A stretch of 10,756 bases of DNA, taken from positions 1 through 10,756 of the forward strand of contig JAEUJR010000575.1 in the NCBI GenBank assembly GCA_016793585.1, given 5' to 3'. Every line of letters starts with the position of its first letter. Within the stretch, counting starts at the first letter, position 1. The translations under genes were made by a program, and so were the position numbers. This stretch comes from Archangium sp. (GTDB lineage: Bacteria; Myxococcota; Myxococcia; Myxococcales; Myxococcaceae). Positions 1 through 10,756 of the stretch are shown here, piece by piece. The notes below the pieces were generated by a model. The model was not told the origin of the DNA. It was given only the letters and a program-made list of their open reading frames with translations, and ran no database searches.

Positions 1-464
1 CGGCTCGTCTCGTCGAGCTTGAGCAGCTTCGACATGCGGCTCATGTCGACGGTGACCGAAGGGCCGACGTCGCGCTCGGGGTTGACGTGCCCGGCCACGC
101 TCGTGCCGCCGCCCCATGGAATCAACCGCGTCTGCGTGCGCTTCGCCCAGTCGAGCAGCGCGCGCACGTCGTCACTGCTCTCGGGGAACGCGACCGCCTC
201 GGGGAACGGGCCGACGACGCCGGAGCGGAGCGCGACCCAGTCGGCGAAGCTCTGCCCGCGCGCGTGCCGGAGCCGGTCTTCGGGCGTGAACGAGAGGAAC
301 GAGGCGCTCGGCAGCCGTGACGGCGGCACGGCCTTCAACGCCTGCTCGAGCGACGCGTCGGAGGGCGGCACTGGCGCTCCCACCCACTCGGCGAGCGCGG
401 TCTGTGCGCGCTGCGGCACGGCATAGGTGTGACTGTCGTCGCCCCAACCATTCCAGCGTCTCAT
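1..464 (-). CDS. FAD-binding oxidase, alkyl-DHAP synthase (AGPS)-like, 3' end outside window
   Basis: Only the first 154 codons are present; the gene continues past the left edge. The protein opens with MRRWNGWGDD, like the KWNGWG signature before the FAD domain of alkyldihydroxyacetonephosphate synthases. It continues with RHARGQSFADW (residues 66-76), a P-x-x-V-x-F-P stretch, and the FAD-pyrophosphate loop PWGGGTSVAGHV (116-127) of the VAO/FAD_binding_4 fold. Known family members swap the acyl chain of acyl-DHAP for a fatty alcohol, the ether-bond step of ether-lipid synthesis, which myxobacteria carry out. Other VAO-type oxidases (glycolate or lactate dehydrogenase-like) share the FAD loop but usually lack the RWNGWG opening. 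The ATG at 464-462 overlaps the fadR stop codon (ATGA), so translation is probably coupled to fadR. The substrate-binding half is missing, so the exact reaction is inferred. Family confidence is high and AGPS function moderate. Confidence 0.85.
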   Translation of the reverse strand, partial: MRRWNGWGDDSHTYAVPQRAQTALAEWVGAPVPPSDASLEQALKAVPPSRLPSASFLSFTPEDRLRHARGQSFADWVALRSGVVGPFPEAVAFPESSDDVRALLDWAKRTQTRLIPWGGGTSVAGHVNPERDVGPSVTVDMSRMSKLLKLDETS

Positions 465-1264
465 CGCGCCTCCTTCGTCGTCGCCGGCCGCTTGCCTGGC
501 CGCGCTGCCCGCTGCATCGCGCGTTCGACGGCGAGCCAGCGCTCGAGGCTGTGCTCCATCGCCTCGCGGGTGACCTGCTCGGCCCGGCTCGCCTTCTTCG
601 CGCGCACCGCCCGCTCGAGCGCGTCGTAGAAGGTCGCCGAGGCGCGCCGGGCAGCGGGCGCGTCGAAGTAGGGCACCGCGAGCACCTGATAGAGGGCTCC
701 GAAGCCATTCAAGATGAGGGTGAAGACGGGGTTGTTCGACGCGGCCGCCAGCACCACGTGCAGCTGCCAGTCGAAGTCGGCGTAGGCCTCGGCGGTGTCG
801 TCGGGCCGGGTGGCGAGCCGCGCGAGCACCGCCGCCGGGTTCTCGTCGGTGGCCTGCCGCGCATAGGCCGGCGCCATCGCCAGGCGAACCTCGAGCAGGT
901 TGGTGACGAACCGGGGCGGCAGCTCGGCGCCGTGCCGCACCACCGCCGAGAGCACGTTGAGCCCGCCTTCACGCCAGATGTCGCGAACCCGCGTGGCCTT
1001 GCCGTGGCGAATCTCGAGCCAGCCGTCGCGGTCGAGCCGCTGCAGCGCCTCACGCAACGTCGGGCGGGTGACACCGAGTCGAGCCGCGAGGTCGCGCTCC
1101 GGAGGGAGGGTCGACCCGGGCGGAAACCCGCGGGAGAGGATGAGGCTGACGAGCTCGCCTTCGGCATGCGCGGCGGGTCGGCGGTCGGGAGAGAGCGAGG
1201 CGATGGCGGGCATATGAGGTAAGAGGTCTGACCAGTTGTCGCTGATCGCCCAGTTCGCCGTCAA
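461..1264 (-). CDS. fadR: FadR-type GntR regulator of fatty-acid metabolism
   Basis: This 267-residue protein (numbered from TTG) resembles E. coli FadR along its whole length, not just GntR proteins in general. The winged helix (about 35-95) has FPPGSTLPPERDL, VTRPTLREALQRL and RDGWLEIRHGKAT. These keep most DNA-contacting residues of E. coli FadR: Arg in PxER, TR-x-TLR, and His-Gly in the wing. The C-terminal helical domain has NLLEVR (122-127), LILNGFGALY (183-192) and S239-x3-W243, matching the Arg, Ser and Trp that hold acyl-CoA in the E. coli protein. It should therefore bind DNA until released by long-chain acyl-CoA. Start: TTG at 1264 has a strong GGAAGGAGG five bases upstream. An ATG at 1213 would give the usual family N-terminus and put the predicted FadR operator (1221-1237) just upstream, but has no ribosome site. 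The family call is firm; the start is open. Confidence 0.93.
   Translation of the reverse strand: MTANWAISDNWSDLLPHMPAIASLSPDRRPAAHAEGELVSLILSRGFPPGSTLPPERDLAARLGVTRPTLREALQRLDRDGWLEIRHGKATRVRDIWREGGLNVLSAVVRHGAELPPRFVTNLLEVRLAMAPAYARQATDENPAAVLARLATRPDDTAEAYADFDWQLHVVLAAASNNPVFTLILNGFGALYQVLAVPYFDAPAARRASATFYDALERAVRAKKASRAEQVTREAMEHSLERWLAVERAMQRAARPGKRPATTKEAR
1221..1237 (-). promoter_or_regulatory. Predicted FadR operator (autoregulatory)
   Basis: The minus strand reads AACTGGTCAGACCTCTT. It fits the E. coli FadR operator pattern, roughly A-x-CTGGTC-x-GACC-x-x-TT with inner core TGGTC-N-GACC, nearly base for base. The fadR gene here keeps the matching DNA-reading residues. The site ends 8 bases upstream of the internal ATG (1213) and lies about 27 bases inside the frame if TTG 1264 is used. 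Either way, bound FadR would block transcription of fadR and the overlapping oxidase gene. The codons it covers (TCA, TTA) are unusual for this genome, as expected if the sequence is kept for binding rather than coding. Confidence 0.75.
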
Positions 1265-1269
1265 GGCCC

Positions 1270-1278
1270 CCTCCTTCC
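1270..1278 (-). promoter_or_regulatory. Strong Shine-Dalgarno for the TTG start of fadR
   Basis: The minus strand reads GGAAGGAGG here, followed by GGGCC and then TTG at 1264-1262, a spacing of five bases. It is among the strongest ribosome sites in the window and the main argument for the longer fadR start. The same TTGACG hexamer (1264-1259) could instead be a -35 box for a promoter serving the internal ATG at 1213, so the site supports but does not settle the TTG start. Confidence 0.6.
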
Positions 1279-1301
1279 CTGCTCGCTCGATGCGAACGCT
1301 C

Positions 1302-2600
1302 TCAGCGCGAGCCGGCGTCGGCGCTCCACCGCTTGACGGTGAGGCGCAGCGCCTGCTCCTGCGCCTTCGACAAGGGCCCGGTGGTGCCGAGGGCCTCGTT
1401 CCACGAGTCGCGGGCGTCTTCGTCTTCGGGGTCGAGCTCGAGGGCGTAGAAGAGCTCGGTGCGCGCCTCGTCGAAGCGCTCCAACCGCAGCAGCACGATG
1501 CCCAGCATGGTGTGGCCCATCGGCACCAGGGGGTCTTCCGTCAGCGCCTGCTGCAGCTCGACCACCGCCTGCGGCTCCCGGCCGCGCACGCCGAGCCAGT
1601 GACCGAAGCCGGCGCGGCGCGAGGGCGTGGGCGCCGGCCCGAGCCACGCGCGGTACACGGTGATGGCCTCGTCGAGCCGGCCCTGGTCGTCGAGCAGCTC
1701 GATGAGGAGCGCCGCCGTTCGTTCATCGGGCGACTTCGCGAAGTTCTCGCGAAGCAGCTTCTCGCGGTCACCCTCCCTCGCCTGCGCCGCGCGCTGGTAG
1801 CGCTCGAGCACCCGCTTCGCCTCTTCGGCCTGGCCGTCGCGCTCGAGCGACTCCATGAGCTCGCGCGCGAGCGACTCGTCGGCAGGCGACGCGGCGAACT
1901 TCTTCTCGAGGCCCTGGCGTTTGATGCGCTCGGTGCGGTGCGCCGACGACTCGCCTCCACGCCGCGTCAGCAGCCACGGCGTCGCCACCACCCCCAGCGC
2001 CAGCACCAGCTCGAACACCACGATGCGGTTCACCACCGTGCGCCGGTGGGCCTTCTGTTCGGCGAGCTCGTCAGGGTCATCGGGCGGCTTCCGGGCCGGA
2101 GCGACGACGACGAAGGACTTCGTCATCAGGTCGGCGAGCCCGCGCCCGTCTGCGCGCGTCAGCCCCAGCAGGCCGCCCGCGAGCGCGCCCACGAAGGCCA
2201 TCAGGCAGGCGAACGTCATCACCAGGCCCAGCCCCGTCGGCACCACGAAGGCCATCACGCCGAACACCTGCGCGAGGAAGCCGAAGAGCAGCGTCAGCAG
2301 GTACGCCGCCGGGAACAAGCCGCGACCGAGCAGCTCACGGAAGGTGACGTTGGCGAGGTCGACGGGGTGCCCGTCTTCGCGGGCGAGCTCGAGGCCCATC
2401 AGCCGCATGCCGGCCGTCTGCTGCAAGAAGGCGAGCGGCACGACCGACCAGCCCAGCATCACCGCCAGCACGCCCCACATGGGCAACACCACGCCGAGCA
2501 GCTTCATCGGCACGAGGAAGGCGAGCACCGAGAGCAGCACGAGCGCCGCGCCATCGAGGAGTCCAGCGAGCACCCGGCGGCTCAAGGGAGCGAGCGTCAT
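1302..2600 (-). CDS. RDD-family membrane protein with TPR-like C-terminal domain
   Basis: This 432-residue protein has two parts. Residues 1-165 form an RDD domain: RRVLAGLLDG (8-17) with the Arg and Asp that name the family, membrane helices near 18-60 and 97-148, the linker QQTAGMRLMGLEL (60-72) matching the usual G-x-T-x-GK/R-x-x-G, and a second Asp in GLADLMTKSF (154-163). After a charged loop, a further helix (191-211) leads into a hydrophilic, helix-rich region (220-432) with TPR-like pairs, for example ELLDDQGRLDEAITVYRAWL and LLRLERFDEARTELFYALEL. The TPR part probably binds other proteins; its side of the membrane depends on helix count. Some RDD proteins act as ion antiporters, but nothing here shows transport. 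The ATG at 2600 lies 45 bases after the MFS stop and fadR follows by 37 bases, so co-transcription is plausible. Domain calls are good; function is unknown. Confidence 0.85.
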   Translation of the reverse strand: MTLAPLSRRVLAGLLDGAALVLLSVLAFLVPMKLLGVVLPMWGVLAVMLGWSVVPLAFLQQTAGMRLMGLELAREDGHPVDLANVTFRELLGRGLFPAAYLLTLLFGFLAQVFGVMAFVVPTGLGLVMTFACLMAFVGALAGGLLGLTRADGRGLADLMTKSFVVVAPARKPPDDPDELAEQKAHRRTVVNRIVVFELVLALGVVATPWLLTRRGGESSAHRTERIKRQGLEKKFAASPADESLARELMESLERDGQAEEAKRVLERYQRAAQAREGDREKLLRENFAKSPDERTAALLIELLDDQGRLDEAITVYRAWLGPAPTPSRRAGFGHWLGVRGREPQAVVELQQALTEDPLVPMGHTMLGIVLLRLERFDEARTELFYALELDPEDEDARDSWNEALGTTGPLSKAQEQALRLTVKRWSADAGSR

Positions 2601-2645
2601 GGCGCAGACCTGAACCCGAGCGGCGGCAGGGAGGCAAGCCGCGCG

Positions 2646-4712
2646 TCACTCCGGCGGCGGAGGCATCGGTTGCCGGCCCCTCAGCGCGAGCTGCGGAATC
2701 TTCAACGTCAGCAGGAAGGCCAGCACCGCGAGCACCGCCGCCAACCGGTAGACGAGCGAGATGGCGTCGGTGAACGACTCCTTGATGGCCAGGCCGACGG
2801 CGTCGATGGCAGCCAGCACCTTCGGCTGCTCCTGGTTGAAGCGCTGCTCGACCTTCAGGCGCGCCTGCTCGAGCGCCATCGCGCCCAGCCGCTCGCTCTC
2901 GGCGTCGATGATGGCCTTCACCGGGCGCAGCGCGAGGGCAGGCCCCGCACCGTCCTTCAGCTCGGAGGGAGAGACGTCGAGCGCGGCGCGCTTCACCACC
3001 GGCGGCAGCTCGTTCGACTCGAGCAGCGCCGTCCACTGGTTGGCGTCCTGCGCGGCCTGCTGCAGGCGCAGCCACGTCTCGTCACCACGCGCCTTCGCCT
3101 GCGCCACCGGCCCGCCGTTCTCGAGCGCGGCCTTCAGCGCGTCGTCTGCGAGGGGGCTCGACTTCACCGCCAGCACCGCGAGCGGGTCTCCCTCGAGCGC
3201 CTTCAACGCGAGCCTGCGCGCCCCCTCGAGCCCGTCGCGGGCCTTCTGCTTCTGGGCCTCGGCGTCGAAGCGCATGCCGGTGGCGCCACCTTCTTCGGCA
3301 GCGCCGGCGCCCTGTGTGCGCGCGAAGCCCTGCACGAGCTGCGGCGGGAGCCCCTCGGCGGCCTTGACGAGCCGCGTGGCCATCGACTCCGAGAGCGTCG
3401 TCGCGAACAGCGAGCCGACGACGGCCACGCCGACGGTCGAGCCCATCGAGCGGAAGAACGTCGTCATCGACGTCGCCACGCCCATCTGCTGCGGCGGCAC
3501 CGCGTTCTGCACCGCCAGCGTGTACAGCGGAATCGAGGGGCCCAGGCCGAGCCCGAGCAGCACCATCTTGAGCGTCACCTCTCCCTGCGTGGAGCCCGCG
3601 GTGAGCGTGAAGCCCATCACCAGAAAGCCCAGCGTCAGCACCACCAACGCCACCAGCATGAACGGCTTGTACTTGCCGAAGCGCGACGCGAGCTGCCCTG
3701 ACAGCACGTTGCCCGCGACGATGCCCATCACCAGCGGGCTGATGGTGAGGCCCGACTGCGTGGCCGTGACGCCGACGACGTTCACCATGAAGAGCGGCAG
3801 GAACACCATCGGCGTGAGGAACGCGGCGCCGAGCACGAACATCGTCAACACGCCCCACTTCACCGCGGGCGTCTGGAACAACGAGAGGTCGACGAGCGGG
3901 GCCTTCACGCGCAGCTCCCACGCGACGAAGCCGACGAGGCCGAGCACCGCCAGCAGCCCCAGCGCCAGCATCGGCGGAGCGCTCCACAGGTAGCCGACGT
4001 CGCCTTCTCGCAGCACCGAGCGGCCGAGCGAGGCGCCGACCAGCAGGGGAATCGTGCCGACCGCGAGCAGCACCGCGCCCATCACGTCGACGGGAGCGCG
4101 CTGGGTCGATGCGCCAGGCTTGAGCGGCGGCATACGCAACAGGATGAAGGCGAGCGCCACGGCGCCGATGGGCAGGTTGATGAAGAAGACCCAGTGCCAG
4201 CCGAAGTGGTCGGTGATGAAGCCGCCCAGCAGCGGCCCGACGAGCGACGAGATGCCGAAGACCGCGCCGAAGAGGCCCGAGTAGCGGCCACGCTCCGAGG
4301 GCGGAAAGAGGTCGGCCACCACCGCGAACGCCGAGGTGAAGAGCGACGCGCTGCCCACGCCCTGCAACGCGCGAAACGCGATGAGCTGCCACGCGTTCTG
4401 CGAGATGCCGCACAGCGCCGACGCCGCGAGGAAGATGACGACCCCCACGACGAGAATCACCTTGCGGCCGAAGAGGTCTGACAGGCGGCCGTACACAGGC
4501 ACCAGCACCGTCGACGACACCAGGTAGGCGGTGGTGATCCACGTGTAGAGGCCGGGCGCGAGGTGCAACGAGCGCTGCATGTCGGGGCCGGCGGTCGCGA
4601 CGACGGTCTGGTCGAGCGCAGCGAGGAACATCGAGAGCAGCGTGCCCGCGAGGGTGAGCATCTTCTGCTGACGGGTGAGCGCCGGAGGGGTCTCCGACAG
4701 CGGGGCGTTCAT
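2646..4712 (-). CDS. DHA2-family MFS drug/proton antiporter with long loop before the last helix
   Basis: This 688-residue protein has an N-terminal EmrB/QacA-type MFS unit. Visible marks are LDQTVVATAGPDM (33-45, motif D1), motif A GRLSDLFGRK (75-84), RALQGVGSA (114-122) with the motif-B Arg, and motif C VGPLLGGF (158-165). Hydrophobic segments are consistent with 14 helices, the usual DHA2 number, implying export of lipophilic compounds driven by protons. Family members are usually about 500 residues. The excess is a hydrophilic, Ala/Glu/Lys-rich stretch (about 438-650) between the penultimate and last helix (about 652-671); with N- and C-termini inside, it would face the periplasm. The C-terminus is short and proline-rich (PMPPPPE). 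The ATG at 4712 has no clear ribosome site. The gene leads the four-gene minus-strand run and diverges from the PuuD-like gene. The substrate cannot be told. Confidence 0.92.
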   Translation of the reverse strand: MNAPLSETPPALTRQQKMLTLAGTLLSMFLAALDQTVVATAGPDMQRSLHLAPGLYTWITTAYLVSSTVLVPVYGRLSDLFGRKVILVVGVVIFLAASALCGISQNAWQLIAFRALQGVGSASLFTSAFAVVADLFPPSERGRYSGLFGAVFGISSLVGPLLGGFITDHFGWHWVFFINLPIGAVALAFILLRMPPLKPGASTQRAPVDVMGAVLLAVGTIPLLVGASLGRSVLREGDVGYLWSAPPMLALGLLAVLGLVGFVAWELRVKAPLVDLSLFQTPAVKWGVLTMFVLGAAFLTPMVFLPLFMVNVVGVTATQSGLTISPLVMGIVAGNVLSGQLASRFGKYKPFMLVALVVLTLGFLVMGFTLTAGSTQGEVTLKMVLLGLGLGPSIPLYTLAVQNAVPPQQMGVATSMTTFFRSMGSTVGVAVVGSLFATTLSESMATRLVKAAEGLPPQLVQGFARTQGAGAAEEGGATGMRFDAEAQKQKARDGLEGARRLALKALEGDPLAVLAVKSSPLADDALKAALENGGPVAQAKARGDETWLRLQQAAQDANQWTALLESNELPPVVKRAALDVSPSELKDGAGPALALRPVKAIIDAESERLGAMALEQARLKVEQRFNQEQPKVLAAIDAVGLAIKESFTDAISLVYRLAAVLAVLAFLLTLKIPQLALRGRQPMPPPPE

Positions 4713-4845
4713 GGCGTAGGCGTAGCCGTCAGGCGTGCGGCTGTCGCTGAGAGAACGTCAGCGCCCTCTCCTGCCGGGGAGGCGTCGCTCGAGCCGACAG
4801 AAGACCGTCACGGCCCAGCCGACTCGGCTAAGACCGTCGGCGCTC
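4713..4845. promoter_or_regulatory. Divergent promoter region between the MFS exporter and PuuD-like genes
   Basis: These 133 bases separate two divergent starts and must hold at least one promoter in each direction, but no convincing -35/-10 pair was found. They are crowded with short symmetries: CGCTGA/TCAGCG arms (4745-4750 and 4758-4763), a 7-bp stem CCTCTCC/GGGGAGG with one G-T pair (4765-4771 and 4776-4782), and the repeat cluster at 4801-4838 listed separately. Confidence 0.5.
4801..4838. repeat. Two direct repeats flanking a perfect palindrome, operator-like
   Basis: AAGACCGTC occurs at 4801-4809 and again at 4830-4838, 29 bases apart (about three helical turns). Between them, abutting the second copy, lies a perfect palindrome AGCCGA-c-TCGGCT (4817-4829). 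The cluster ends 7 bases before the ATG of the PuuD-like gene, a position where a bound repressor would block transcription or translation. It resembles no operator I know; a regulatory role is inferred from layout only. Confidence 0.5.
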
Positions 4846-6396
4846 ATGACCATCGTCCTCGAGTGGCTCAACCTTCTCGTGCGCTGGGTGCACGTCATCG
4901 CCGCCATCATGGGGGTGGGTGAGTCGTTTCTCTTCATGTGGCTCGACAGCCACCTGACGGCGCCGACGAAGCCGCGTGAAGGCACCGTCGTCGGCGAGCT
5001 GTGGATGACGCACTCCGGCGGCTTCTATGAAGTGGTGAAGCGCAAGTCGCTCGCGCAGAACGAGCTGCCGGCGCAGCTCTACTGGTTCAAGTGGGAGAGC
5101 TACACGACGTGGCTCTCGGGCTTCGCGCTGCTGAGCGTCGTCTACTACGGCAGCGGCGCCTCGTTCCTCATCGACTCCACCGTCGCCGACCTCACGCGCA
5201 CGCAGGCGACGCTCATCAGCCTCGGGCTGCTGCCGGCGGCGTTCATTCTCTACGAGCTGCTGTGGCTCACGCCGCTCTCGAAAGACAACCGGGCCTTCGG
5301 CGTCGTCGGCCTTGGGCTGCTGGCGGGCCTCGCGTACTGGCTCACGCACCTGTTCTCGGGGCGCGGCGCGTTCCTGCAGCTCGGCGCCACCATGGGCACG
5401 GTGATGGCCGCGAACGTCTTCTTCCGCATCATTCCTTCGCAGCGGCACATGCTGGCGGCCACGAAGGCGGGCACGCCCGTCGACGTCACCTATGGCCTGC
5501 GCGCCAAGGGCCGCTCGGTGCACAACCACTACCTGACGCTGCCGGTGCTCTTCACGATGTTGTCGAACCACTTCCCCTCGACGTACGGCCACGCGCAGGC
5601 GTGGGTCGTGGTGGTGGTGCTCTTCGTCTTCGGCGCCTCGCTCAAGTACGTGATGAACTTTCGCGCGAAGACGCACCCGCTCGTGTTCGCGTCACTCTTC
5701 GCGTCGATGGGGGCGTTCGTCTTCATGACGATGCCGAAGCAGGAGTCGCTGCCGGGCCTCGAGCAGTACACCTCGGCGAAGCCGGTCTCGTTCGCGACGG
5801 TGAACGCCATCGTGCAGTCGCGCTGCGTGTCGTGCCACGCGGCGAAGCCGGGCACCGCGATGTTCACCGCGCCGCCACAGGGCATCATGCTCGAGACGAA
5901 GGAGCAGATTGGCCAGCACGCCGAGCGCGTCTACCTGCGCGCGGTGGCGACGAAGACGATGCCGCTGGGCAACCTCACTGGCATCACGCAGGCCGAGCGC
6001 GACCTGCTCGGCGCGTGGGTGGCGCAGGGCGCGAACGTCGATGCACCCGGGCCCGTCGAGCTGCCGGGAGCACCTGCACCAACCGCTCCGCCTACGCCGA
6101 CGACGCCCGAAGCGAAGGCCGACGCGCTCTTCACCGGGCTGTGCGCGAGCTGTCACGGCCTCGACGGCCGCGCCGAGACCGACACCGCCAAGGCGCTCAC
6201 CCCGCACCCGCGCGCGTACGTCGACGGCGAGTGGCAGAAGAGCGTGACCGACGAGCACCTCGCGAAGGTCATCGTCGAGGGTGGGGCGGCCGTGGGGAAG
6301 AGCCCGCTGATGCCCGCGAACCCCGACCTCGCCTCGCAACCAGAGGTCGTTCAGGCGCTGGTCAAACGCGTGCGCTCGTTCGCTCCGACGCCGTGA
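4846..6396 (+). CDS. puuD: PuuD-like (urate hydroxylase family) membrane protein with two cytochrome c haem sites
   Basis: This 516-residue protein begins WLNLLVRWVHVIAAIMGVGESF (residues 7-28), matching the first helix of the PuuD / urate-oxidase-N family (DUF989-type), including its His. About seven more helices follow to residue 295. Then comes CVSCH (327-331) in the RCVSCHAAKP context typical of PuuD, with a possible Met ligand at 372. After a Pro/Thr-rich linker (402-422) a second cytochrome c domain appears: CASCH (433-437), possible Met ligand 489. Known PuuD proteins oxidise urate to 5-hydroxyisourate and pass electrons to a single haem c; the second haem is extra. No other purine-degradation gene is in the window, so urate as substrate is uncertain. 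The ATG at 4846 was chosen because homology starts there; the frame is open upstream to 4735 but that part looks non-coding. It overlaps xthA by 4 bases. Confidence 0.82.
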   Translation: MTIVLEWLNLLVRWVHVIAAIMGVGESFLFMWLDSHLTAPTKPREGTVVGELWMTHSGGFYEVVKRKSLAQNELPAQLYWFKWESYTTWLSGFALLSVVYYGSGASFLIDSTVADLTRTQATLISLGLLPAAFILYELLWLTPLSKDNRAFGVVGLGLLAGLAYWLTHLFSGRGAFLQLGATMGTVMAANVFFRIIPSQRHMLAATKAGTPVDVTYGLRAKGRSVHNHYLTLPVLFTMLSNHFPSTYGHAQAWVVVVVLFVFGASLKYVMNFRAKTHPLVFASLFASMGAFVFMTMPKQESLPGLEQYTSAKPVSFATVNAIVQSRCVSCHAAKPGTAMFTAPPQGIMLETKEQIGQHAERVYLRAVATKTMPLGNLTGITQAERDLLGAWVAQGANVDAPGPVELPGAPAPTAPPTPTTPEAKADALFTGLCASCHGLDGRAETDTAKALTPHPRAYVDGEWQKSVTDEHLAKVIVEGGAAVGKSPLMPANPDLASQPEVVQALVKRVRSFAPTP

Positions 6397-7241
6397 AGCT
6401 CTGCACGTGGAACATCAACGGCGTGCGCGCGCGTGAGAGCGACGTGTACGACTTTCTGCGCGAGGCGCAGCCCGACGTGCTGTGCCTGCAGGAGGTGAAG
6501 GCGTCGGTGCACCAGGTGCCCGTCAGCCTTTCCAAGCACGAGGGGTACTGGTCGTACTGGCACGGCAACAAGGGCTACTCGGGCGTCGCGATTCTGGTGC
6601 GCAAGGCGTGCTGCCCGGTGCGCCCGCGCTTCAGCCACCCCGCCTTCGACTTCGAGCAGCGCATCGTGGTGGCCGAGCTCGGGAGGCTGCGGCTCGCCTC
6701 CATCTACGTGCCCAACGGCGGCAAGGACCTGGCGGCGAAGCACTCCTTCCTCGAGGCGATGGCGACGTGGGCCGCGGCCGAGCTGCGCAGCGGCCACGAC
6801 CTGGTGCTGTGCGGCGACTTGAACGTCACGCGCACGGCGAGCGACGTGCACGCCTCGGAGCGAAACGAGACCCTCGTGGGACAGACACCGCACGAACGCG
6901 CGCTCTTCGAGCGGCTGCTCGCGAATCACCTCACCGACCTCGGCCGACACTTCGCGCCCGACGACGAGTCGGTCTTCACGTGGTGGGCGCCGTGGCGGGA
7001 GCACCGTGAGCGCAACATCGGCTGGCGCATCGACTACGTGCTGACGAGCGCGGCGATGTCGGCCCTCGCGAAGACGTGTACGGCCGAGCGCCAGTTCGGC
7101 AGCAGCGACCACGGGCCCGTCAGCGCCGTCTTCGAGCGGGCGTTGTTCGACCCGGCGCTGGTCGAGGCGGGGCCCGAGCAGGTGGTCGCCGAGCCCGAAG
7201 CGCGGGGGCCCCAGCTCGACCTCTTTGGCAACAAGGTGTGA
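6393..7241 (+). CDS. xthA: Exonuclease III / AP endonuclease (Xth family) with C-terminal clamp-binding motif
   Basis: This 282-residue protein has the complete EEP-fold active site: WNINGVRA with Asn7, LQEVK with Glu34 (metal), GDLNV with Asp142 and Asn144, WRIDYVL with Asp214, and SSDHGPV with the catalytic pair Asp239-His240. The family cuts DNA 5' of abasic sites and removes blocked 3' ends in base-excision repair, in the cytoplasm with Mg2+. The catalytic domain ends near residue 250. The remaining tail is probably disordered and closes with QLDLF (274-278), the consensus beta-sliding-clamp-binding peptide, which would tether the enzyme to the replisome. The GTG start at 6393 gives the standard MKLCTWNING opening and overlaps the upstream stop (GTGA), so translation is likely coupled to the PuuD-like gene. 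The stop is 9 bases from the convergent FBP-domain gene. Confidence is high. Confidence 0.96.
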   Translation: MKLCTWNINGVRARESDVYDFLREAQPDVLCLQEVKASVHQVPVSLSKHEGYWSYWHGNKGYSGVAILVRKACCPVRPRFSHPAFDFEQRIVVAELGRLRLASIYVPNGGKDLAAKHSFLEAMATWAAAELRSGHDLVLCGDLNVTRTASDVHASERNETLVGQTPHERALFERLLANHLTDLGRHFAPDDESVFTWWAPWREHRERNIGWRIDYVLTSAAMSALAKTCTAERQFGSSDHGPVSAVFERALFDPALVEAGPEQVVAEPEARGPQLDLFGNKV

Positions 7242-7250
7242 AGGCTGCGC

Positions 7251-7715
7251 TCAGCGACCCGCGCCAGAGAGGTCGATCTTCAGCGCATCACTCGCGAACT
7301 GGCCGATGCGAGCGATGAGCTTCTCCATCGCAGGGCGAACGCTCGCGCCGGTGCGATTGGCTGCCTCTTCGAGCTTCTCGCGGCAGCTCAGGTCGGTGCA
7401 CACGTGCACGCCCGCGCGTCTGTTCCCGTTGACGGTGGCGGTCAGCAACCCCACGCCCGTGCCTGCGACCGAAGAGTGACACCATGAGCACATCGCCGGC
7501 ACCGAGGTGCCAGCACCGTTGGTGTCGAAGGCGATGCCCGTCGGCGCTCCGCCTGGCGTCGCGAAGACGATGAACACCTTGCCGCCGCCAGGGTGCGGCC
7601 AGGCGACGTAGTCCTTCACCACGAGGGGGAACGTCAGTGCGGTGACGTCGACCGTCTTGCGGTCTTTCGGGCGGAAGGCGTCGAGCAGGTCGTCGGCGGT
7701 ATCGAGCTTGAACAC
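7251..7715 (-). CDS. FBP-domain (EF-G-binding type) treble-clef zinc-finger protein
   Basis: This 154-residue protein has the zinc-binding pattern of the FBP (FusB/FusC C-terminal) domain: MCSWCH (C76, C79), then a strand VGLLTATVNG, then GVHVCTDLSC (C106, C111). In FusB-type proteins this treble-clef domain binds elongation factor G and frees ribosomes stalled by fusidic acid. Many bacteria carry stand-alone versions of about 150 residues with unknown duty, and this is one of them. The N-terminal 75 residues include the W-P stretch usual before the finger. The GTG at 7715 is the only usable start: an in-frame TGA sits five codons upstream (7730-7728). A GGAG lies only two bases before it, unusually close. 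It follows the truncated haemoglobin gene by 84 bases on the same strand. Domain call good; link to translation or resistance inferred from the family only. Confidence 0.8.
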   Translation of the reverse strand: MFKLDTADDLLDAFRPKDRKTVDVTALTFPLVVKDYVAWPHPGGGKVFIVFATPGGAPTGIAFDTNGAGTSVPAMCSWCHSSVAGTGVGLLTATVNGNRRAGVHVCTDLSCREKLEEAANRTGASVRPAMEKLIARIGQFASDALKIDLSGAGR

Positions 7716-7799
7716 GGCTCCATCATTTCATCGACGCCGGCGCGGCGAGAAGCGCCGATGGGGCCGCGAACCCCGTGGAACCGCTCGCAGCCCCTCGCC

Positions 7800-8237
7800 T
7801 CAGTGGTCGACGTTGCGCAAGAAGTCGGCGACCTCGGCGAACCGTTTGTCGAGGTACGCCCGCACCCCGCCGGTGACGCCCTTCGCGTCGAGGGCCCGCT
7901 GCATGCTCCGCAGCCAGGCATCGCGCATTGCGACGTTCACGACGACCTTCCCGTGGCGCATGCGCAGCCTCGGGTGGCCTCGCGTCTCGAGGTACGTCTG
8001 CGGCCCACCGAGCCAGTAGACGAGGAACGAGGCGAAGTGGTCGCGCGACTCGCGGCTCACCTTCCCCGGAGCGTCGCACCGATGCAGCGCCGTCAGCTCG
8101 GGCTCGTGCGTCTCCATCGCGTCGTAGAAGGCCTCGACCAGCGCCTTCGTCGCGTCGACGCCACCCAGCCGCGCGTAGGGAGGGTCGGCCTCGGTCGGCA
8201 TGTACGAGCCATCACCTTCGACGCGCAGAGAAGTCAT
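7800..8237 (-). CDS. Group II truncated haemoglobin (GlbO-type)
   Basis: This 145-residue protein matches TrHb2 globins across the fold. It shows ARLGGVDATKALVEAFYDAM (22-41) with the B10 Tyr38, His52 at the CD1 position, WLGGPQTYLETRGHPRLRMRH (75-95) ending in the proximal haem ligand His95, and RDAWLRSM (105-112) with the family's G8 Trp108. Mycobacterial GlbO has Tyr at CD1; His there is common in proteobacterial TrHb2. Such proteins bind O2, NO or peroxide and are usually tied to oxidative or nitrosative stress. The first 20 residues form a short extra N-terminus. The ATG at 8237 has no strong ribosome site. It shares an upstream region with the divergent His-rich membrane-protein gene and may be co-transcribed with the downstream FBP-domain gene. 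Confidence in the family is very high; ligand and role are not visible. Confidence 0.95.
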   Translation of the reverse strand: MTSLRVEGDGSYMPTEADPPYARLGGVDATKALVEAFYDAMETHEPELTALHRCDAPGKVSRESRDHFASFLVYWLGGPQTYLETRGHPRLRMRHGKVVVNVAMRDAWLRSMQRALDAKGVTGGVRAYLDKRFAEVADFLRNVDH

Positions 8238-8376
8238 GGGCGGCTCATACCGCAGCGGCCCGCCCCGGCCGACGAAGGCGCCGCGGCCTGGCGAGCGGGG
8301 CTCATCGCTCGAATCAGTGCCCGCGTGTGGTAGGCCGCCGCCGCATGCGTGAGGTTCCTTCGAGCGGAGACAGGCG

Positions 8377-8793
8377 ATGAACGCGCTGCTCGTCTACGGC
8401 CACCCGGCCCTCGCCACCGTGACGCTGCTGCTGGCCTGGCTCGTGTTTCGTGCGGGGTTTCATCAGCGCCTTCAGCGGCTGCGGCGGGTGACGGCTCCGG
8501 CCGGCAGTCTCGCGCGACACCTGAAGCTCGGGCCCGTCAGCGTGGTGCTCTTCGCCGCCTCGGCCATCGGCGGCCTGGGCTCGGCGGTCTTCCTGCGTGA
8601 CATGAAGCCGCTCGCCACGTTCCACGGCAAGCTGGGCCTCGTCACGACGGCTGTCTTCGTCGCGCTCTACCTGCTCGGGCGCCAGCTCACCTCGGGCAAG
8701 AAGCACCTCGCCAACCTTCACGGTGTGCTCGGGCTGCTCTCGCTCTTCGCCGCGGGCCTCACCGGCGTGCTGGGCATCTCGCTGCTCCCGTGA
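8377..8793 (+). CDS. Small four-helix membrane protein, His-rich (DUF4079/cytochrome b561-like?)
   Basis: This 138-residue protein has four hydrophobic segments, near residues 8-25, 52-72, 85-102 and 114-136. Histidines sit at helix ends: HP (9-10), H29, RHLKLG (H48), FHGKLG (H83), and H110 with LHGVLG (H115). The repeated H-x-x-LG placement recalls b561-like proteins that hold haem between paired helices, and the opening HPALATVTLLLAWLVF resembles DUF4079 proteins. I recognise the type but not a specific family, and haem binding is a guess. The ATG at 8377 has a good GGAG seven bases upstream. The gene is divergent from the truncated haemoglobin gene across 139 bases and convergent with the gyrase-B-like gene. 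Coding status is well supported by the start, the membrane pattern and the tight convergent end. Confidence 0.8.
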   Translation: MNALLVYGHPALATVTLLLAWLVFRAGFHQRLQRLRRVTAPAGSLARHLKLGPVSVVLFAASAIGGLGSAVFLRDMKPLATFHGKLGLVTTAVFVALYLLGRQLTSGKKHLANLHGVLGLLSLFAAGLTGVLGISLLP

Positions 8794-8813
8794 CAGCCGC
8801 CGCTCGGTGAATG

Positions 8814-8834
8814 GACCGCGCTCGCGCGACGGTC
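8814..8834. terminator. Possible hairpin in the convergent gap
   Basis: GACCG (8814-8818) and CGGTC (8830-8834) can pair around a CG-rich loop that itself contains CGCG/CGCG. It lies in the 39-base gap between two convergent stops and overlaps the stop codon of the minus-strand gene. There is no T-run on either side, so it is at best a weak, bidirectional intrinsic terminator. Confidence 0.3.
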
Positions 8835-10131
8835 AGAAGGCTTCGCTCCCCGCCCACGCCGCGCTGAGCCTTTCCCGGGCTCGAGGTACGGCGTCGAGGT
8901 AGACGCTCCAGGCCTCGACGAAGCGCTGCTCGATGAGCGTCAGGAGCGCGTCGGTCTCTTTCACGTCGTCGACCGTCTCGAAGGCGACGATGCCCGTGAG
9001 GTGTCGGGTCGGAGCCTCGGTGTGCGGCGAGAGCTTCACCGCCCTGGCCAGCGAGCGCCGCACGCCCCGAGCTGGCATGCCGAAGGGGTTCGTCACCCGG
9101 GCGTTGCGCAGCACGTGGAGCGGAGGCTGCGCGGCGTCGCACAGGCCGAGCGCGACCCGCACCGTGAAGTCAGGCTCGTCGATGGAGAAGTGGAAGAGCT
9201 GCTCGCTCCACAGCGGCGTGCTGCCGATGACCTTGCGCGCGGCGGCCTCGAGCGTCTCGACGTGAAAGGCCACACCGTCGAAGAAGAACGTCGCGCGCGG
9301 GAGCAGCCCGGCGAGGTGCTCCACCACCTCGCGAACCTCTTCGCGGCGAAGCGGCCGCTCGAAGAGCACCGGGTCTGGCTCGAAGAAGAGGGTGTTGTCG
9401 AAGCGGCCCCGACGTGAGCCCTGCGTCACCGGCCCGACCCTTCGCCCGAGCCGCCAGCGCTGCTGCAGCACGTCGCCGCCGCGCACCACCTCGATGGAGA
9501 ACGTGTTCGACAACGCGTTCACGACGGCGGCCTCGTCGTGCGCTCTGCCCTTCACGGTGCGCTGGTACGTGACGTGCTCGACCAACCGCTCCACCAGCGT
9601 GTCCTCCGTGTCTTCGAGCGCTTCGAACGCATAGCGCCCGCTGTCGTCCGAGATGGAGACGAGCCCGTCGAACGTGACCTCGACCTGCGTCGCGCGGCGC
9701 GCGCAGACCTCGACCGCAGGCCCCGCAAGCGCGAGCGCGAGCAGCTGCTTCGCCTCGACGGTGGTCAGAAACACCTCTGGCTGCCGGCGCACGGCGTCGA
9801 GCCCATCGGGGAGACGCAGCGGAATGGGGGCGGTGCTCGAGAACATGACCGTCAACGTCACACCGGAGTCGTCATGCGCACGTTCGACGAAGGCGCGCGC
9901 CAGGGCAGGCGTCACGCCAGGCACCGCGAAGGCCACACCCGGACCAGGCGATGACCTGAGGTCGACGCGCACGCCGGGGAGCCGACGCCGCAGCGACGCG
10001 AGCTGCTCCTGCGAGACGGTGCCGTCGAGCTCGAGCCACGGGTCGCCACCGTCTTCGCGCATCGACACGCAGCCCCGCCTGAAGCCGCAGACCTCGACGC
10101 CGATGGCCAGACACTGCTGAAGCAACTCCAT
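8833..10131 (-). CDS. GyrB/ParE-like protein with degenerate ATP site and no TOPRIM domain
   Basis: From residue 108 this 432-residue protein follows type II topoisomerase subunit B. DGLDAVRRQPEVFL (109-122) matches the GL-x-AVRKRPGMYI opening, and QVEVTFDGLVSISDD (149-163) matches the strands before the DNGRG box. AAVVNALSNTFSIEV (201-215) matches GVSVVNALS, and QRWRLGRRVGPV plus LFFEPDPVLFE (247-257) match the GyrB segment before the transducer. Residues 320-400 resemble the transducer. The catalytic Glu (E. coli E42) aligns with Leu133, Mg-ligand Asn46 with Gly137, Asp49 with Val140, and the lid GLHGVGVS has become AHDEAA. ATP hydrolysis is therefore unlikely. TOPRIM and GyrA-binding parts are absent and about 105 N-terminal residues are unfamiliar. 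The ATG at 10131 follows an in-frame TAG by four codons, fixing the start. The long uninterrupted frame argues against simple decay. Function unknown; perhaps a gyrase partner or regulator. Confidence 0.82.
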   Translation of the reverse strand: MELLQQCLAIGVEVCGFRRGCVSMREDGGDPWLELDGTVSQEQLASLRRRLPGVRVDLRSSPGPGVAFAVPGVTPALARAFVERAHDDSGVTLTVMFSSTAPIPLRLPDGLDAVRRQPEVFLTTVEAKQLLALALAGPAVEVCARRATQVEVTFDGLVSISDDSGRYAFEALEDTEDTLVERLVEHVTYQRTVKGRAHDEAAVVNALSNTFSIEVVRGGDVLQQRWRLGRRVGPVTQGSRRGRFDNTLFFEPDPVLFERPLRREEVREVVEHLAGLLPRATFFFDGVAFHVETLEAAARKVIGSTPLWSEQLFHFSIDEPDFTVRVALGLCDAAQPPLHVLRNARVTNPFGMPARGVRRSLARAVKLSPHTEAPTRHLTGIVAFETVDDVKETDALLTLIEQRFVEAWSVYLDAVPRARERLSAAWAGSEAF

Positions 10132-10175
10132 GGGCGAACGAGCCTAGGCCCACGGCGCGTCGAACGGCCCACGCC

Positions 10176-10195
10176 GTGTCAGGCCGACCTGACAC
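10176..10195. promoter_or_regulatory. Perfect inverted repeat in the divergent promoter region
   Basis: GTGTCAGG (10176-10183) and CCTGACAC (10188-10195) form a perfect 8-bp dyad around ccga, 36 bases upstream of the gyrase-B-like gene and 48 bases upstream of the FHA gene. It looks like a dimer-binding operator for one or both genes. It overlaps another inverted pair, CACGGCG (10151-10157) with CGCCGTG (10172-10178), so the two pairings exclude each other. No clear sigma70 or sigma54 promoter was found in the 112-base gap. Confidence 0.45.
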
Positions 10196-10243
10196 CGGGG
10201 CCGCCGCTCTGCTTCGGGGTGCCTGCGATAGGGTTCACGTTCG

Positions 10244-10756
10244 ATGCTCGACACCCGAACCCGCCGCACCGAGAAGCTGTCGTCGCCCCTTCTGCGGCTC
10301 GACGCCGAAGGCGCGCTTCACCACATCTCGTGGACGGTGCGCGTCGTCGGAGGGCCCGACCAGGGCAAGGGGCTCGAGGTGACCCGGGCCATCGTCGTCG
10401 GGGGTGGAGACGGCGTCGACCTGCGCCTCTCTGACGCAGCCGTCTCGGGCCAGCACGTGCAGCTCGAGCCACGGCCCGACGGCGTCTTCGTGAAGGACCT
10501 CGGCTCGACGAACGGCACGCTCATCGGCGGCGCACGGGTCGAGGCCGCCATCGTCGAGGGGCAGGCCGTCATCACCATCGGGCGCACGATGTTGTCGCTC
10601 ACCATGTCTGACGAGCGCGACGAGGTCGGCGCTCAGCTCGAACGACTCACGCCCGAGCTGCACCAGCAGCGCGCGAACCAGCTGGGGAAGGTCGTCGCGC
10701 CGCTCACGCAGCGGAGGCACGCGCAGGGACGCGACCGCGAGCCGGAAGTAGAGGTC
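10244..10756 (+). CDS. FHA-domain protein, apparently the N-terminus of a sigma54 regulator cut at an inversion junction
   Basis: The ATG at 10244 opens a frame that runs off the right edge (171 codons). Residues 30-121 form an FHA domain: TVRVVGGPDQGKGLEV, then VVGGGDGVDLRLSDAAVSGQH (S68-x-x-H71), then DLGSTNGT (85-92). FHA domains bind phosphothreonine. The Arg of the usual GR motif is Gly here (VVGGG), so binding could be weak or altered. In myxobacteria such an N-terminus is usually followed by a sigma54 AAA+ domain in the same frame. Here, after about residue 121, the frame (SDERDEVGAQLERL onward) is the exact antisense of an AAA+ segment on the minus strand, so residues past 121 are probably not natural protein. 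No clear ribosome site precedes the ATG. FHA call firm; the gene as read is likely chimeric. Confidence 0.8.
   Translation, partial: MLDTRTRRTEKLSSPLLRLDAEGALHHISWTVRVVGGPDQGKGLEVTRAIVVGGGDGVDLRLSDAAVSGQHVQLEPRPDGVFVKDLGSTNGTLIGGARVEAAIVEGQAVITIGRTMLSLTMSDERDEVGAQLERLTPELHQQRANQLGKVVAPLTQRRHAQGRDREPEVEV
10601..10756 (-). pseudogene. Fragment of a sigma54-activator AAA+ domain, inverted against the FHA gene
   Basis: Read from the right edge leftwards, the minus strand encodes DLYFRLAV, then RVPPLRERRDDLPQLV, then ELSADLVALVRHG (51-52 residues). This is the highly conserved C-terminal part of the sigma54-interaction AAA+ domain, including the DLYFRL and PPLRER motifs. The next expected motif, WPGNVREL, and the Fis-type DNA-binding helix are missing. 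From about 10604 the minus frame becomes antisense of the FHA domain and loses all similarity. The upstream part (Walker A, GAFTGA) should lie beyond the right edge on the minus strand. It could be a segment of the same regulator flipped, a second convergent regulator truncated by a deletion, or an assembly artefact. Confidence 0.8.

Follow-up and report, generated by a model that had tools for sequence, protein, structure and literature searches.

The best fold match of the protein considered here is a solved structure, 3CWV, entitled 'B-subunit of the DNA gyrase from Myxococcus xanthus' and 'DNA gyrase, B subunit, truncated'. Its sequence has Phe in place of the catalytic glutamate and Val in place of the Mg-binding asparagine, has neither DxGxG nor the glycine lid, and keeps AGPTK. 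A GyrB that is both truncated and dead at its ATP site is already represented by a solved structure, and no family name for it was met; in the open-licence literature no paper mentioning '3CWV' was found, and none on stand-alone TOPRIM-less GyrB proteins (titles and abstract openings). The present subject is a gene on the minus strand, at 8833-10131, of a 10,756-nucleotide stretch of Archangium sp. DNA (GCA_016793585.1, contig JAEUJR010000575.1, positions 1 to 10,756; the whole stretch is called the window). Judging from sequence, its product is probably (about 0.8) a GyrB43K-like pseudo-ATPase acting as an ATP-independent binding or scaffold protein. An initial annotation of the window had seen no described family alike, a claim overturned by 3CWV, since that structure has an erased site and its type is carried by 27 or more of the 195 phylum genomes. 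What is new in the window family is the loss of the transducer QTK lysine in every row and an N-terminal domain of its own. The features of the gene are listed below.

8833..10131, minus strand: gene for the 432-amino-acid GyrB-like putative pseudo-ATPase, stop codon within the coordinates (open reading frame, homology, G+C pattern)
9838..10131, minus strand: residues 1-98, N-terminal domain found in this family only, with a predicted structure (small alpha/beta sandwich) similar to GHKL domains
9262..9813, minus strand: residues 107-290, GHKL (Bergerat) domain whose ATP site is erased (fold match, profile comparison, motif table)
9733..9735, minus strand: Leu133, replacing the catalytic Glu (GyrB Glu42; alignment)
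9721..9723, minus strand: Gly137, replacing the Mg-binding Asn (GyrB Asn46; alignment)
9628..9654, minus strand: residues 160-168, ISDDSGRYA replacing VxDDGRGIP, with the Asp73 equivalent kept and Gly77 changed to Arg
9532..9552, minus strand: residues 194-200, KGRAHDE replacing the Gly-rich lid GGLHGVG (alignment)
8836..9261, minus strand: residues 291-432, transducer-like domain, similarity traceable to about residue 383-388
8950..8979, minus strand: residues 385-394, site of the missing QTK loop (gaps at Q335/K337 in 8/9 family rows)

The frame is intact, with an ATG start and 432 codons, and its G+C content by codon position (0.73/0.48/0.89) is of the coding type. The start MELL is common to eight of nine homologues, the ninth (P0010) beginning later. 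Homology to GyrB/ParE exceeds chance: five NCBIfam gyrB/parE models match the protein (E 2.3e-7 to 1.3e-3), ParE and GyrB chains of the PDB are matched at a best E of 3.4e-5 with the single sequence and 2.3e-14 with the family profile, and hhalign pairs residues 107-290 with 72 myxobacterial GyrB/ParE rows at 99.4% (E 4e-21). The Pfam models HATPase_c and DNA_gyraseB give no match at E<=0.5. The GHKL and transducer homology and the fold of a type IIA topoisomerase B subunit are thus present, as the initial annotation proposed, although the colinearity that it drew from residue 108 to 432 stands over about residues 101-383 only; the last 50 or so residues are less well supported because the colinear stretch ends there. 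The TOPRIM domain is indeed absent, the protein ending at residue 432 and a Pfam scan of ten open reading frames of the window showing none.

The erasure of the ATP site is a property of the family. Nine family rows were aligned with GyrB/ParE (positions are given in E. coli numbering), and three further rows (P0003, P0005, P0009) carry the same site changes in the homologue alignment. The replacement of the catalytic Glu and the Mg-binding Asn, first seen in the window protein, recurs throughout: neither is kept in any of the nine rows, Glu42 being Leu in eight and Val in one, and Asn46 Gly in eight and Ala in one. The reported loss of the transducer lysine is equally general, K337 falling in a gap in 8/9 rows and being Leu in the other. 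As for the lid, the claimed replacement is borne out at G117 (His in 8/9 rows, Gly in one) and G119 (Glu in 8/9, Ala in one), but not at the first lid Gly position. The 28 positions equivalent to the pocket have a conservation of 0.875, against 0.837 for the rest of the domain, a value reached by 3837 of 20000 random sets. The altered site is therefore stable, conserved like the domain background and without special protection.

The family is rare. A search of 5.8 billion proteins, with scoring of the 8000 candidates that had the most words in common, returned nine homologues besides the window's own protein, at 65-78% identity and with many invariant residues. When 195 phylum genomes were searched with the family profile (best nine candidates per genome scored), the family appeared in two, with none further at E<=1e-21: one copy (L001/L062) matching at 79-80% in 'MAG: Archangiaceae bacterium isolate LZH' and one (L002/L063) at 31-33% in 'MAG: Myxococcaceae bacterium isolate Prado148'. 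Frames are open in all ten family proteins and in both genome copies. The ratio of non-synonymous to synonymous substitution rates (dN/dS, Nei-Gojobori) between the window gene and L001 is 0.378, with segment values of 0.455 (residues 1-104), 0.306 (105-260) and 0.359 (261-432). On this single sequence pair, selection on the gene is purifying but clearly weaker than on its neighbours, and the idea that an intact frame has been kept is sustained. A mobile or phage origin was considered and rejected: 50,697 phage records gave no match at E<=0.01, and the plasmid matches (eight records, among them genes annotated as GyrB/ParE and 'ATP-binding proteins' of Streptomyces) are partial, with a coverage of at most 61%.

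The unfamiliar domain noted ahead of the GyrB-like part corresponds to residues 1-98 and is specific to the family: a region search among 285 candidates returned seven proteins, all of the window family. In a genome search (best 85 candidates per genome scored), the match G005:C467 (E 0.0037) was discarded, lying antisense to a 540-amino-acid frame that resembles a membrane protein; the other candidate match was in G041 (E 0.042). The structure model of this domain is a small GHKL-like alpha/beta sandwich. Profile similarity to GHKL domains was not detected in three hhalign comparisons (probability <=1.6%), a missing signal that does not exclude kinship. The top Foldseek rows, 2idl and SMU.848 (Prp-like), are poor, with a template-modelling score of about 0.3, and were set aside. 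GyrB carries a dimer-swapping arm at the N-terminal position. It is conceivable, if improbable, that two dead GHKL-type domains are arranged in tandem ahead of the transducer, the N-terminal one being a stripped second GHKL module where the dimer partner's arm would lie, and that such a gyrase-like gate, permanently closed or open and independent of ATP, would tune DNA topology or its own paralogues in Myxococcota.

The gene product is related to type IIA topoisomerase B subunits, and its N-terminal domain stands where GyrB has its arm. Having lost the Glu, the Mg-binding Asn, the phosphate-binding lid and the QTK Lys, it is very unlikely to work as an ATP-driven clamp; we infer that it does not turn over ATP and that the retained GHKL-transducer body may serve as a protein-interaction scaffold. 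Candidate partners would be GyrB or ParE of the host cell, or one of the less eroded stand-alone paralogues; the sister genome G001 contains all of these. That the partner is a topoisomerase or such a paralogue is a guess and rather doubtful. Several observations weigh against a scaffold of this kind. The full-length structure model is of middling confidence (predicted local distance difference test score 65, predicted template-modelling score 0.46), and it departs from the structures of GyrB by a high root-mean-square deviation of about 5-6 A. Canonical co-dimerisation with GyrB is disfavoured because the arm is missing. No recurring partner gene emerged from an all-against-all comparison of open reading frames predicted in the window plus 22 further loci. 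Moreover, constraint is weaker than on the surroundings, the dN/dS of the gene exceeding that of four neighbours, taken from the same genome pair, by a factor of 2.5 to 22. Finally, Asp73 is kept in 8/9 rows, Gly occupies the first lid Gly position in 9/9 and Thr165 is kept in 5/9, so that a ligand may still be bound.

The retained Asp73 and first lid Gly, together with a pocket as conserved as its background, speak for a ligand sensor in which a remodelled pocket binds a nucleotide or another small molecule without ATP turnover; this is nonetheless unlikely, given the His and Glu at G117 and G119 in 8/9 rows, the Gly or Ala at the Mg-binding Asn in 9/9 and the missing QTK Lys in 9/9. Less probable again is that the gene is a remnant of a gyrB paralogue, in decay and evolving almost neutrally: the dN/dS of 0.38 lies well above the 0.017-0.149 of the four neighbours and the family is found in 2/195 genomes only, but the ratio is also well below 1, the frames are open in ten family proteins and in L001 and L002, and many residues are invariant at 65-78% identity.

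Least credible of all is a decoy or immunity factor that counters GyrB/ParE-directed toxins, drugs or phage proteins. Such a toxin exists, PMC12136450 describing Cpe1 as a protease toxin that, in E. coli, cuts a loop of the GyrB/ParE ATPase domain, and stand-alone copies stand in tandem at three loci (L104, L110 and L094). However, the Cpe1 target LHxGGK, present in 58/58 GyrB/ParE rows, occurs in 0/30 other stand-alone rows and in 0/8 window-family rows. A simple substrate decoy is for that reason not favoured, an argument that holds for Cpe1-like proteases only. In addition, no family of PADLOC-DB 2.0.0 matches the protein at E<=10, the phage records are silent, and no neighbour gene recurs, the neighbours not having been scanned for defence genes. 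Decoy, defence and immunity roles thus find no support here, and the ATP-independent scaffold remains the preferred account.

The divergent neighbour of the gene is the following.

10244..10756, plus strand: FHA-domain gene running past the window end (Pfam FHA, E 1.6e-11)

This neighbour resembles an FHA/sigma-54 activator in L094, and FHA/sigma-54 activator genes adjoin a GyrB-like gene in L094 and L112 as the FHA gene does in the window. It was considered as a conserved partner and rejected: the all-against-all comparison relates it to L094 alone and to no gene of L062, so the association is likely due to chance. The recurrences in that comparison reflect the shared gene order of close relatives and widespread signalling families (at other loci, the Pfam scan of neighbours covered 15 chosen proteins). 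The other window genes encode, according to Pfam, a FadR-type regulator, an RDD/TPR protein, an MFS transporter, a urate oxidase with cytochrome c, an exonuclease-like protein, an FBP zinc-finger protein, a truncated haemoglobin and a DUF4079 protein. Several are shared with L062 and none with L063. A 1-kb block holding the truncated haemoglobin and DUF4079 genes (window 7799-8797, L062 11353-12351) has, between the window and the sister genome, the opposite orientation to the blocks on either side of it.

The Myxococcota genomes related to the window's hold further stand-alone, TOPRIM-less GyrB-like proteins, with which the sequences show kinship. A tree of 59 rows includes 21 GyrB/ParE rows, chosen among 58 distinct ones and belonging without exception to the window's order, and leaves out stand-alone rows that are short, cut or fragmentary (L094:7264, L098:638, L101, L105, L114, L115), the near-copies P0011 and P0013, and family rows P0003, P0005, P0006 and P0009. 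The window family forms one clade (100/100) on a long branch. The 21 GyrB/ParE rows lie on one side of a branch (98/97), so that all stand-alone rows fall on the other. The best tree joins the window family to the 3CWV clade (96/85), with long branches in play; trees that group the family with the less eroded type or with GyrB/ParE instead are not rejected (approximately unbiased test, p-AU 0.118 and 0.147). On the best tree the catalytic Glu requires at least three changes and the Mg-binding Asn at least two. The ATPase domains of type II topoisomerases are targeted by drugs and toxins and usually show tight conservation. One phylum offers stand-alone TOPRIM-less copies ranging from nearly complete to erased ATP sites, a natural series on the GyrB gate without ATP or DNA cleavage. 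This stand-alone set has been little noticed, and the window family lies at its far end, with an added domain.

Compared with DNA gyrase B and topoisomerase IV ParE, the window protein has homologous ATPase and transducer domains, but is without TOPRIM and the QTK Lys, has its ATP site erased and carries an additional N-terminal domain. The less eroded stand-alone type (e.g. L095, L096, L099, P0014, P0016) occurs in Myxococcota and metagenomes, in at least seven of 145 genomes of the order as short frames (G001, G004, G005, G007, G019, G022, G091), and such a paralogue is likewise present in the two genomes that hold the window family (n=2). It shares the TOPRIM-less GHKL-transducer build (hhalign 99.5%, E 1e-22). 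Unlike the window family, most of its rows keep the Glu, the Asn and the lid GxG: among 22 rows, fragments included, Glu is kept in 17, Asn in 17, G117 in 20 and G119 in 20. At the Gln of QTK, 15 rows have a residue, and in 13 of them it is Pro. These proteins carry Pfam HATPase_c and mostly DNA_gyraseB, and some DUF7919, which stands ahead of the GyrB-like part in L099:6290-7741, P0015 and P0020 as a second, different N-terminal addition. Three less eroded genes stand in a row at L094:5747-9409 in G001, the middle one encoding 208 amino acids.

The 3CWV clade of the Myxococcaceae group, in which the structure itself aligns with the L107 protein at E 1.4e-179, is also stand-alone and TOPRIM-less, with the catalytic Glu, Mg-binding Asn and lid erased, at 19-22% identity to the window protein (five rows compared). 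The two differ in what is left: Glu, Asn and Asp73 are each kept in 0/13 rows of the 3CWV clade, whereas Asp73 persists in 8/9 of the window family, and the transducer Lys (PTK or PVK) is kept in 8/13 against 0/9. The 3CWV clade is without the N-terminal domain of the window family, and RPxxYxG is kept in 11/11 of its rows. It is also commoner, occurring in at least 27/195 genomes against 2/195, all 27 in the family-level group of G001 (rows with open frames below 600 amino acids; G065:C704, whose frame holds a TOPRIM motif, is left out). Tandem arrays of three and two 3CWV-type genes, at L104:5209-9110 and L110:5139-7507, suggest repeated duplication. Further afield, a 389-amino-acid protein of a Streptomyces plasmid (WP_330335360.1, annotated 'ATP-binding protein'; NZ_CP107820.1, L121:3941-5110) shares the TOPRIM-less GyrB-like build; it belongs to another phylum, keeps the Glu and the lid glycines, and has Tyr for the Mg-binding Asn and STR for QTK. 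A more distant parallel is provided by TOPOVIBL and MTOPVIB, the meiotic topoisomerase VI-B-like proteins, which are likewise relatives of topoisomerase ATPase subunits with degenerate GHKL sites and act as non-catalytic partners, but which are eukaryotic, belong to the type IIB lineage and have SPO11 as their partner.
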